DNA of 64,000 bases, taken from positions 992,001 through 1,056,000 of the forward strand of contig JAGPNK010000006.1 of assembly GCA_020746835.1 (NCBI GenBank), written 5' to 3'. Source of the stretch: Stachybotrys elegans. Lineage: Eukaryota > Ascomycota > Sordariomycetes > Hypocreales > Stachybotryaceae. Shown here in pieces: positions 38,331-43,398 of this stretch. A program made the translations under genes and the position numbers. Under the pieces are notes generated by a model. That model was not told the origin of the DNA. It made no database searches and was given only the letters and a program-made list of their open reading frames with translations. The first letter of the stretch is position 1; each line of letters opens with the position of its first letter.

Positions 38331-39696
38331 GTGAGCAGTCACTCCCTGGCCGTAGCTGTCTCCGGACGAGCCATGTCGCGCGGGAACCCGAGGGGTTCTT
38401 GGGTAGGTCTGGGGTTCGTCCCGAACCACATAGTGCTCTTCCGCCTCCTATGCTCATGGTCATGGTCAGCAAGTGGAAGAAGAATCTGTTTCATCCGTCA
38501 CAACAAACCGGAGCATGTCGATCATCGTCTCCGCCAAACCGAACATACGTGGGACGATCGCGCGACTCTCGCGAGGCCATGGCTCGACGCCGTAATCAAT
38601 CCAGGCTCAACAGCAGCGCCCTTGTCTATTCGGAGACGGCCGTCGTGTCTTCTTTTCACCCTCCGGAATTTGTCAACTTGGCAGCTGACAGACATTTAAT
38701 TGCCGGTTGCCTTGCCTCATTTTAGTGGGCGCATGGGCGTTTACAGGGGTTGGTAGCGAACGACCCGCTTCCACCTCGGGTCATCATACATCACCATTTC
38801 TATAGCACTGATCCATTGCTCTATGGTAGAGCTGATGCATGCAGAGAGGAAATAGAGAACAATAAAAGGGGTATTAGCCTGTGCAAACCGTAATGATTAC
38901 CCCATTACAAGCCGAGAGTCAGATAACGGGGAATCAGCAGACGACTTCATCCAGTGGATGGAGCAAGAGTGCAAAAGGCGGTAGCAGAAGCCAGTATTAG
39001 CAACAGGGGCAAAAGCTGTTTATTAATATATGTTTGAGTGTAAAAATACTGATCGCAAAGCTTCTTCTTCGCCAGAGGGGAGGAGAGACAAACAACGAGG
39101 CCATCGTCAAGCGTACAGGATAGCCGAGTGGCTGCGACTATATGGTGATCCATACTGCCGCCACGCTCTCAAGGCCAAAGCAATGCACCTGACCTGTATC
39201 GTGCATTGTCTCCATAAGCTTTCTGATCTGGCGCTGGACGTTCCGGTGCCCTACACATTGGTGCCATTTGCCGTCCTTGACTGTTGCAGTCGTCTTCAGT
39301 TTGGCAATAATGGCTTCCCTCTAGGTCGGGAGCTGCTCTTGTTTATGTTACGTTCGACATCTCTCGACGGCTTCCGAGTAATACATGGCCTGGCTTGCAT
39401 GTCTTCTACAGGCAGAAAAACTGAGCACATCGACTTCATGGCATCATGTACGTCTTGACCGGCTGGAGGTAAAGTGAACAAAAGGAATCGAGGGTGTTCA
39501 TTGAGTTTTAGGCTCTATTTTACAAGTGGTGGCACGATTGGCGAATCCCCTTCTCACCCATCGTTCCATCCGGCAATAATCCCTCGGGCTACTCCCTCCG
39601 CTTCCTAAGACAAGAGTAACTGGAATAATCCGATATAGACAGCATCAGCCTTACCACGACCTGGTGATCCAGAGTAGAGGCTCATATAGTACGCGC
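38331..39696. other. Intergenic region between CorA-like gene and atp1
   Basis: About 1.4 kb without a supported gene; contains the promoter of the CorA-like gene at the left and the atp1 3' flank at the right. A short 'cttcttcttcgccagaggg' piece at about 39060 resembles sequence at 27812 and 30712 in the Cys/His-rich copies and may be a stray fragment of that family. Confidence 0.45.
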
Positions 39697-42222
39697 TTAA
39701 GCCAGGAAACTCTTGATGAAGGCAACAGAGACATCCTTGAGCTTGGCCTCGGTCTCCTTGCTGAGAGCGCCCTCCTTGTCAATGGTAGCCAGGAGCTCAG
39801 TCTCGTTGGTCTTGAGGTGCGCAAGGAAGTCGCTCTCCCACTGCAGGATCTTGTCGACGGGGACATTGTCGAGGAGACCGTTGACACCGGCATAGATGAG
39901 AGGAACCATCTCGTTGACGGCCATGGGAGAGTACTGGCGCTGCTTCAGGAGCTCGGTAAGCTGGAGAGTCGTCAGTATCTTAATCCTTTCACTGTAAAAC
40001 TGATATGGTCAACTTACACGCTCGCCACGAGCCAGAGTCTGCTTGGTAGCAGCGTCGAGATCAGAACCAAACTGCGCAAACGCAGCAACCTCACGGTACT
40101 GGGCCAGGAAAAGCTTCAGAGATCCAGCAACCTGCTTCATGGCCTTGAGCTGAGCAGCAGATCCGACACGCGAAACAGACAGGCCGACGTTGATCGCAGG
40201 ACGGATACCCTTGTAGAACAGCTCAGACTCCAGGAAGATTTGTCCCTACACCAAATGTTAATATATCGTCGAAATTCAATATCTTTGGAAAACTTGCACT
40301 ACACCACAGTTAGCATCGCGAATCTGGCACTTCTAAGGACAGGGGAAAAATCACTCTGTGATACTGATGACGTTGGTCGGGATAAAGGCAGAAACGTCGC
40401 CTCCTTGAGTCTCAATGATGGGCAGAGCAGTCATGGAACCACCGCCGTGCTTGTCGTTGAGCTTGGCAGCACGCTCGAGGAGACGAGAGTGCAGGTAGAA
40501 AACGTCACCGGGGTAAGCCTCACGACCGGGAGGACGACGGAGAAGCAGAGACATCTGACGGTAAGCAACCGCCTGCTTGGAAAGATCGTCGTAGATGACC
40601 AGGGCGTGGCGACCCGTGTTCATGAAGTGCTCCGCAATAGTAGCTCCTGTTGGTAGACATTAGATTAGCCGAAACAAGACAGATGAGATGAATAAGATGA
40701 GATAAGATGAGAAGATATCAGACGAAGTAGATGAAGTAGACGAAGGAGACGAAGTAGATGAAGTAGATGAAGTAGACGAAGGAGACGAAGGAGACGAAGG
40801 AGACGAAGGAGACGAAGGAGACGAAGGAGACGAAGTAGATGAAGTAGACGAAGGAAAAAGGAAAGAAAAGTGGGACCGACCGGTAAAAGGAGCAATGTAC
40901 TGCAGAGGAGCGGCGTCCGAGGCAGTGGCAGCGACGACAATGGAGTACTTCATGGCATCGTTCTCCTCGAGGGTCTTGACGAGCTGGGCGACGGTGGATC
41001 GCTTCTGGCCGACGGCGACGTAGACACAGAACAGCTTCTTGGTCTCGTCGTTGCCATCGTTCCATCGCTTCTGGTTGAGGATGGCGTCGAGAGCGACGGC
41101 AGTCTTACCAGTCTGACGGTCACCAATGATCAACTCACGCTGACCACGGCCGATGGGAACCATGGCGTCGACGGACTTGAGACCGGTCTGGACGGGCTGG
41201 TGGACGGACTTGCGAGGCAGGATACCGGGGGCCTTGAGCTGAGCACGGCGCTTCTGCTTGGTGTTGATAGGGCCCTTGCCATCAATGGGGTTGCCGAGAG
41301 CGTCGACGACACGGCCCAGCATCTCATCACCGACGGGAATGTCGACCTGGGCGTGTTAGAGAAATTTTGCTTGCAAGACGGACAACTTACAATTTCACCG
41401 GTACGCTTGACGGTCTCGCCCTCCCTGACCAGACGGTCGGAACCGAACAGCACGACACCGACCTGGCCGGCCTCGAGGTTCATGCACATGCCCTTGACGC
41501 CAGAGGCGAACCTAGAGCAAGCATGTTAGAGCGACTAGAACATGTGGTGCGGATGGGTAGTACTTACTCAACAAGCTCCTCAGCCTGGACGTTGGCCATA
41601 CCGTGCACACGGGCGATACCATCACTAGAAATTGATGCATTAGCTCCAGCTCTTCTGATGGCTCCACGCTGTGCCAATGGGTTGTCGTGGAGGCGTAGCG
41701 ATGAATGTCGCAAGCTGCTCCCAACCCACCGGCATAGCTCTCATGCAACAATAAGCTCCACATACCCGACGGAGAGGACACGACCAGTCTCGGCGAGGTT
41801 AGACTCCTCCTGGACACCACGGATTCGCTGCTCGAGGATAGAAGAGACCTCGGTCGGGGAAGCCTTGGCGTCGGCGGCGTAGGATCGAACCTGGGCGTTG
41901 ATGGCGACTGGTGCGGCATTTCGGACCTGAGGTGGAAAAAAAATCCAAGTTAGCCGAAGCGCAGCCAGCAGGGTACCGAGCCTCGACGGTGGCCGAAAGG
42001 CTCTCAAAAATGCAATGTGCGTGTGACGGAGGCCATTCCGTGGTCCAATTGAGCTCCCATTGCGTTTTTCCGATGGATGCAGGTTGGTTGGGGCGAGGTT
42101 TGGATGGCAATGGCCGTCGAGGTCGGGGCTCGGAGCACGGAGAGACTTACCACGGCGACTCTGCCAGCGGCAGAGACGGCGCCGACAGCGCGAGTCGACT
42201 GACGGAGAGCGTTGCGGAACAT
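39697..42222 (-). CDS. atp1: Mitochondrial ATP synthase F1 alpha subunit
   Basis: Alpha subunit of the F1 motor in the mitochondrial matrix; binds nucleotide and with beta forms the catalytic hexamer. Exons 5' to 3': 42222-42151, 41926-41766, 41624-41568, 41511-41391, 41346-40881, 40646-40355, 40298 (one base), 40245-40018, 39960-39697; 1662 nt, 553 residues. A presequence ([14 protein letters not shown]) is followed by the beta-barrel domain, the Walker A loop GDRQTGKT, and the alpha/beta signature '[20 protein letters not shown]'. The C-terminal helical domain ends in FIKSFLA. The one-base exon (T) is required: without it codons GA|GG do not form the universal ITDGQIFLE and the frame is lost. 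It is flanked by a GT-AG intron (40354-40299, 56 nt, branch GCTAAC) and a GC-AG intron (40297-40246, 52 nt, donor GCAAGT, branch ATTAAC). The 234-nt intron (40880-40647) holds a minisatellite. Confidence 0.97.
40246..40354 (-). other. Two introns flanking a single-nucleotide exon in atp1
   Basis: The 109 bases between two unmistakable coding blocks split into a 56-nt GT...AG intron and a 52-nt GC...AG intron with one T (40298) between them. Both pieces have the normal fungal intron length and their own branch-like sequence (gatgctaac and tattaac). Removing all 109 bases would shift the frame, while keeping the T gives ACA GAT GGA CAA (T-D-G-Q), the conserved residues. Confidence 0.85.
40721..40855. 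repeat. 9-bp-unit minisatellite inside an atp1 intron
   Basis: About 15 units of GAAGGAGAC / GAAGTAGAY on the plus strand (pyrimidine-rich in the transcript) fill most of the 234-nt atp1 intron between the 'LQYIAPFTG' exon and the next. The transcript-strand CTTCGTCTC-type sequence could act like a very long polypyrimidine region. Confidence 0.9.
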
Positions 42223-43398
42223 TATGAGGGAGGTATTTGGGGTATTGAGATGGAGGAAGCAATTGCAACGAGGTGCAATTGGCGGAGGGGAGATTTGGGG
42301 ATGGGGAGGTCTGCCTTTGCAGAGAAGCAAATGGAGGATTTTTGAGAGGACACTGACGGAGAGAGCAGAGTCTGTCTGGCCGACAGGGAGAGGATTAGTG
42401 GGCCCGTCCGACCCAGCGCCCAATCAACGCCCACTGCGCGGTTTTGCCTGGATTTCCCGAAAGCTGCCCTAACAATTTACCTGCTTCGGGACATTCAGCG
42501 GCGCTAGGTCACGGCTGGCAGCCTGAGGAATCCGCCCCTTGCTCCCAACCCAGCTTATGTTGCCGGGTTGGCAGGCCTGCCAGGGGGGCCTCTAAATAAC
42601 CCGGGTGGACGTCCCAGTCTCGGTTCATTTCCAGCCTGGAAGAAAAACCTGCCCGTTGTCGTTGCCCGTACCTTAGCCGGCGCCTCAACACCGAGGTAAG
42701 CTCACCACACCGTCAGCTGCTTACCCTAAAGCCACGATGCTTGTCCGTCATACCTCCGCCTATCCAAGTGAAAAGTTACAGCTTGTTCGCTTGCGCTGAG
42801 AAGATGGTAGATCGGGCGTGGGCGGTCATTGCGACGGTCATTTTATGTCTTAGTATGTTACCTGGGCGATTAAACGATTGTCGCGGGTAAAATATTGTTG
42901 TTTTCAACTGATTTTGTCGACCCCATCCATCTCCTTAGACACGAAGTGCTGTGTATATCCGGCCAATGATTATCATCCCAGCCCAGTTTGATGACATCCA
43001 TTGGGATGGTTAAGCCTAAAAGCTTATTTAAATACTGGGAAAGCTGTGCGGCTGCCGATGGGCAGGTGCGATCATGGCCAGCCTAACATTGACCTTAATG
43101 TAGCTGCTAGCATGATATTAGTAGTGTTGGTACTGGCCAAGGTACGGGCAGCGACAACGGGCAGGTGTTTCTTCCTATAAATGGGCCGGCCACTGTTAGA
43201 TATTCGACTCTGAGTACTCTCAGGTCTCCATGATAGAAGCAAAAGGTGTCATGTACGAAAGGATATCACAAATAGGGCACTTAGCCAATAGCGTCTGCAT
43301 TTGCATTTTTGATCCTCACACGTCAGGACCCCCAGGTCCTCAAAGCGAAGATGCTTCCCAGACAACCTCCACGTCAAGGTCTGTGTGGCTTGTGACGC
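42223..43398. other. atp1 promoter region and right flank
   Basis: About 1.2 kb with no gene. The first 400 bases are GC-rich and should hold the atp1 leader and promoter; they are followed by AT-richer sequence. At about 43258-43325 there is a diverged copy of the gag segment also seen at 26780 and 45540 (ggatatcacaaatagggcac...). Confidence 0.5.

Follow-up and report, generated by a model that had tools for sequence, protein, structure and literature searches.

Structure of the atp1 locus

The window analysed here is a stretch of 64,000 nucleotides of the Stachybotrys elegans genome (contig JAGPNK010000006.1), and all positions are counted from its first letter. On its minus strand lies atp1, whose product is the mitochondrial ATP synthase F1 alpha subunit: its homology to known alpha subunits extends over the full length, and the best PDB match is 2xok chain A (E 1.8e-267, query residues 26-551). 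The joined-exon gene model, with the two introns discussed below, is as follows.

39697..42222, minus strand: atp1, mitochondrial ATP synthase F1 alpha subunit; 9 exons, CDS of 1662 nt, 553 aa plus stop
42222-42151, minus strand: exon 1
41926-41766, minus strand: exon 2
41624-41568, minus strand: exon 3
41511-41391, minus strand: exon 4
41346-40881, minus strand: exon 5
40646-40355, minus strand: exon 6, 292 nt, with the 3' end ...ATC ACA GA
40354-40299, minus strand: predicted intron 6, 56 nt, GT-AG, GTGATT...GCTAACTGTGGTGTAG, branch-like GCTAAC, acceptor TAG
40298, minus strand: predicted exon 7, a single T, third base of the Asp-390 codon GAT
40297-40246, minus strand: predicted intron 7, 52 nt, GC-AG, donor GCAAGT...TATTAACATTTGGTGTAG, branch-like ATTAAC, acceptor TAG
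40245-40018, minus strand: exon 8, 228 nt, with the 5' end GGA CAA ATC TTC CTG GAG
39960-39697, minus strand: exon 9

A preliminary description of this DNA had placed 109 nt (40354-40246) between two secure coding blocks of atp1 and had proposed that one T alone, at 40298 (an A on the plus strand), is kept there between a 56-nt GT-AG intron and a 52-nt GC-AG intron, the latter with the donor GCAAGT, and that a branch-like motif lies in each. When we rebuilt the nine-exon CDS, these coordinates, lengths and signals proved right. With T40298 the CDS is open, has 1662 nt, which is divisible by three as had been claimed, and encodes ITDGQIFLE at the junction of exons 6, 7 and 8. The immediate context of the base is TGTAG^T^GCAAGT (carets mark exon borders), so that it is flanked by AG and by a donor dinucleotide, here GC and not GT; CTAAC and TTAAC are the branch-like sequences, and both introns exceed 50 nt. 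This is the setting of a single-nucleotide spliceosomal exon with signals in each of its introns. The T is also needed for the frame and for the conserved protein sequence: when it is left out, the CDS falls to 1661 nt and a premature stop arises at codon 426. Retention of intron 6 leads to a stop at codon 391, and retention of intron 7 to one at codon 415. Apart from the region of exon 7, the CDS requires no repair.

Splicing solutions across the interval

We enumerated splicing solutions with GT or GC donors, AG acceptors and introns of at least 20 nt over the gap plus 60 nt on each side. This yielded 136 one-intron and 1,907 two-intron solutions (2,043 in total), 315 of which keep the frame open. 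Only two of the 2,043 rebuild ITDGQ, each by way of a single T: T40298, between introns of 56 and 52 nt, and T40329, between introns of 25 and 83 nt. An explanation by a single intron was rejected, since none of the 136 GT/GC-AG pairs gives ITDGQ; the top-scoring one removes 126 nt and thereby deletes residues.

The preliminary description held that only this single T would serve. This stands for canonical solutions in which both introns have at least 40 nt, T40298 being the only such enumerated solution that gives the conserved sequence, but it does not stand in general. If the one-nucleotide exon were T40329 instead, the mRNA and the protein would be identical and the introns would again have GT-AG and GC-AG ends, with the donors GTGATT and GCCAGA; since the two mRNAs are the same, spanning reads alone cannot pick between the two positions. 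A 25-nt intron, however, has almost no space for a branch point, and the acceptor AAG and the donor GCCAGA are both poor, the latter far off consensus. We consider an exon at T40329 extremely improbable. The two-intron reading with T40298 that had been put forward is thus supported as a prediction.

Two short introns lying side by side in a filamentous ascomycete also bring stwintrons to mind, in which one intron is nested in a splice signal of another and the whole is taken out as one contiguous stretch; stwintrons have been described in several filamentous ascomycetes, for example in Hypoxylaceae and Aspergillus. They resemble introns 6 and 7 of atp1 in consisting of two adjacent introns that are removed in two successive splicing reactions, but they differ in that one intron interrupts the splice signal of the other and, in the cases described, no base is kept between them (PMC6616335). 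The parts of a stwintron would leave nothing behind here, and the tested contiguous removals, starting no more than 40 nt ahead of the gap and ending no more than 40 nt behind it, never restore the aspartate, and none gives ITDGQ. Where such a removal yields the deposited S. elegans protein, considered below, its outer ends are non-canonical. A stwintron at this place is therefore scarcely credible, unless the protein does contain Glu.

Conservation of Asp-390 and the deposited protein

The aspartate that the single T would complete is conserved in the sequences examined. Among the 120 full-length homologues listed (8,000 scored), 119 have the residue pair TD and read ISITDGQIFL; the one exception is the deposited S. 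elegans protein (P0001), which has TE and reads ISITEGQIFL. We also searched the exon 6 and exon 8 peptides against proteins, seeking gene calls that run into introns. TD was present in 102 of the best 120 of 7,600 exon-6-type fragments, next to one PD, one TN and 16 in which the search pattern was unmatched, some of these 16 terminating at the residue pair; for exon-8-type fragments (best 120 of 3,363) the counts were 96 with TD and 24 unmatched. Genome contigs were queried with the S. chartarum alpha-subunit protein; of at least 568 confirmed loci, 80 were kept, all bacterial by title, and TD occurs in 80/80. A search of viral contigs yielded no locus. Glu at this position was thus seen nowhere among the listed alpha subunits counted except in the deposited S. 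elegans model.

Three of the 120 exon-6-type fragments (P0278, P0305 and P0319) end in ISITG..., the form expected if a phase-1 intron interrupted this Asp codon behind its first base. In other lineages, too, introns may sit in this codon.

The deposited protein has 553 aa and matches the one-base-exon model from end to end, with D390E as the sole difference. If it were correct, a single 108-nt intron with non-canonical ends would be removed and Glu would take the place of Asp (ITEGQ). V-type ATPase B subunits have ITEGQ at the corresponding place. Given these, Glu at residue 390 is not unthinkable, and D to E is a chemically mild change that the deposited sequence itself carries. Contiguous removal, however, can produce that sequence in three equivalent 108-nt ways only, with the ends AG-GT, GT-TA or TG-AG, none of which is a normal intron; the other 119 listed homologues have D; and a canonical solution that yields D is available in the same sequence. 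No enumerated GT/GC-AG solution has the score of the deposited protein, 978.3, the list dropping from 982.3 to 969.3. We regard the deposited reading as highly improbable, and D390E in the public protein is likely a database error. We read it as an apparent misannotation at a one-base exon that the public annotation seems to have missed: the annotation pipeline may have absorbed the exon into its neighbour, and a one-base exon forced into a neighbouring exon would produce the deposited protein with its one changed residue. The genome analysed here is presumably one of those from the project on 41 root-associated fungi. That project combined PacBio assembly, Illumina transcriptomes and JGI annotation, and S. 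elegans is not named in the main text of its paper (PMC8664821).

Chance expectation and the possibility of a lost base

An assembly indel is the main rival to a one-base exon. A base missing at an exon edge (for example, ACAGAT^GTGATT) would leave one ordinary GT-AG intron of ~108 nt and no one-base exon. Loss of a single base would account for the frame with a single canonical intron; introns of 141, 224 and 234 nt are present in the same gene; and the same transcript could also have yielded the odd deposited model. Against this, the lost base must be a T or a C, and neither exon edge holds a run of T or C; the remainder of the CDS is intact; and it would be left unexplained why a branch-like motif, TAG, T and GCAAGT stand in mid-intron at the needed spacing.

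We estimated how often such an arrangement arises by chance by leaving both ends of the 109-nt interval in place and filling the inside with random genomic sequence or with mononucleotide shuffles of the real inside. The strict setting comprised a T exon, a YAG acceptor, a branch-like motif, a donor of at least 5.5 bits (the real GC donor of intron 7 has 5.94 bits) and introns of at least 40 nt on both sides. An internal T exon then appeared in 90 of 400,000 genomic fills and in 117 of 200,000 shuffles, which is 2.2e-4 to 5.9e-4, or 2-6 in 10,000; the thresholds were set after the case had been seen, and these rates and the following ones are orders of magnitude. With any single base allowed, the strict counts were 371/400,000 and 448/200,000, and for a T exon without the donor threshold they were 1,076/400,000 and 2,118/200,000 (0.27-1.1%). 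Taking these points together, we consider a lost base quite improbable.

The scores of introns 6 and 7 fall inside the range spanned by a crude set of 34 introns taken from 264 kb of this genome: percentile 26 for the donors, 41 and 76 for the acceptors, and 100 and 38 for the branches. These percentiles are rough, as the set is small, noisy and preselected (donor score at least 2, branch score at least 4). A first set had held 16 introns and the looser one 34, and both must be far below the true number in the region.

Proposed splicing mechanism

Based on these findings, we propose that S. elegans atp1 very probably carries a constitutive one-nucleotide exon, T40298, between two short introns that are recognised separately. 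With lengths of 56 and 52 nt, each intron would be recognisable as a unit, and the spliceosome would remove the GT-AG and the GC-AG intron by intron definition in two successive reactions; succession would be needed because two complexes hardly fit on the shared sites together. Ligation would make the T the last base of the codon for Asp-390 (GA^T^GGA), and the frame and the ITDGQ motif would thereby be restored. The preliminary description had considered exon definition inadequate to explain such recognition. This is right for the one-base exon itself, but no paradox follows, since both introns are short and intron definition could recognise them.

Intron 6 is the one that we would expect to leave earlier, because transcription reaches it before intron 7 and because pairing with U1 is stronger at its donor (-4.4 vs -1.6 kcal/mol for the GC donor of intron 7; the consensus has -12.3). 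By duplex energy the GC donor pairs weakly with U1, and it gains nothing from the removal of intron 6. Improved U1 pairing was therefore discarded as an explanation of the order, the duplex energy being -1.0 kcal/mol after removal of intron 6 vs -1.6 before. As skipping of the T or retention of either intron leads to a premature stop, wrong products should be non-functional, and they may be degraded. The spliced junction would read ACAGATGGACAA, and contrary readings predict ACAGAGGGACAA or ACAGAGGACAA. Splicing via T40298, with its order and efficiency, is what we infer from the genomic sequence.

Comparison with known one-base exons

One-nucleotide exons are established in plants and in Fusarium. 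In Arabidopsis, one was described in APC11 by Guo and Liu in 2015 (PMC4674806), and Yu et al. in 2022 followed those of APC11 and VPS55 across land plants (PMC8831610). As proposed for atp1, these are one-nucleotide exons between spliceosomal introns and are required for the proper protein; they differ in belonging to plant genes, in having GT donors and in being supported by cDNA, reporter constructs, RNA-seq or RT-PCR (PMC4674806, PMC8831610). For APC11, Guo and Liu proposed intron definition with successive removal on a steric argument, and the interval there is 422 nt long, vs 109 nt in atp1 (PMC4674806).

A close parallel is the cytochrome P450 gene CYP621A of Fusarium, for which Nelson and Syed reported in 2026 a one-nucleotide exon that they call the first for a fungal gene (PMC12940212). 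Both cases come from filamentous Hypocreales, and in both a single base in the codon of a conserved motif is needed for the frame and the total interval is short (139 nt in F. graminearum CYP621A, 109 nt in atp1). Of the database transcripts that its authors list for CYP621A, only one has the exon right (PMC12940212), and the deposited model of atp1 appears to be off as well. CYP621A has AG^G^GT, with a GT donor and the middle base of a Gly codon, and is backed by 20 orthologues and 18 RNA reads (PMC12940212). The atp1 case has AG^T^GC, with a GC donor and the third base of an Asp codon, and is predicted from genomic sequence in a core respiratory gene of one species. The one-base exon of placozoan cox1 is not known to be spliceosomal. 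It shares the single base with atp1 but belongs to a mitochondrial gene described with trans-splicing introns (PMC5436844).

Our literature search, which covered titles and the beginnings of abstracts, chiefly outside the subscription journals, listed no paper on such an exon in a gene for ATP synthase and none on GC-AG introns with fungal microexons. The earlier view of such exons as very rarely reported is borne out in that very few are described, with the qualification that plants and Fusarium already provide them. What sets the predicted atp1 exon apart is its host gene and the GC donor after the single base. If the prediction is true, the range of one-nucleotide exons widens from a handful of plant genes and a single fungal P450 that is rarely expressed to a core respiratory gene. 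atp1 is presumably highly expressed and essential. The fungal spliceosome would then have to handle a one-base exon followed by a GC donor, and atp1 would offer a natural minimal substrate for the question of how two splicing reactions share adjacent sites. The case would also show how annotation can hide one-base exons, with one residue of the public protein changed, apparently via a non-canonical intron; this pattern could be searched for systematically.

Possible origin of the two introns

TAAC and TGGTGTAG are common to introns 6 and 7 at the 3' end. The alignment score of the pair, 10, was reached by none of 5,000 shuffles of the interior, and by 13.7% of the shuffles that kept the last 18 nt. 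Among the 325 pairs formed by 26 introns, this pair ranks third overall and second on the last 17 nt, where it is tied at the top score. As a sign of duplication, the similarity is suggestive only; an intron may have been duplicated locally, with the T at the exon edge lost afterwards. For Fusarium CYP621A, Nelson and Syed suggest that the loss of a base was rescued by a cryptic exon (PMC12940212). A 221-base query over both introns, searched in the whole genome (43.4 Mb, 61 contigs) at E <= 0.001, matched itself and nothing else, which speaks against introner-type copies at that threshold, from which diverged copies could escape.

A more far-reaching scenario, which we find doubtful although worth stating, would make the one-base exon a relic: the 3' part of an intron would have been copied in tandem, after which the exon edge would have lost its T and a T within the duplicated intron would have taken its place. 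The GC donor would then be the first to abut a one-base exon among the published cases compared, and obligatory ordered splicing, in which each wrong product has a premature stop, would tie ATP synthase output to splicing fidelity.

In the sampled set, the 3' end GGTGTAG occurs in none of the 34 introns, and the last 8 nt are shared by none of the 561 pairs among them. An Rfam search gave no structured RNA match across 39600-42400. Intron 5 of atp1 has the donor GTCGGT, which scores 1.26 bits and is under the 2-bit cutoff of the intron reference set. The same intron contains a 9/27-nt tandem repeat (window positions 40720-40855) with the unit AGACGAAGG on the plus strand, amounting to 15.1 copies of the 9-mer with 91% matches.
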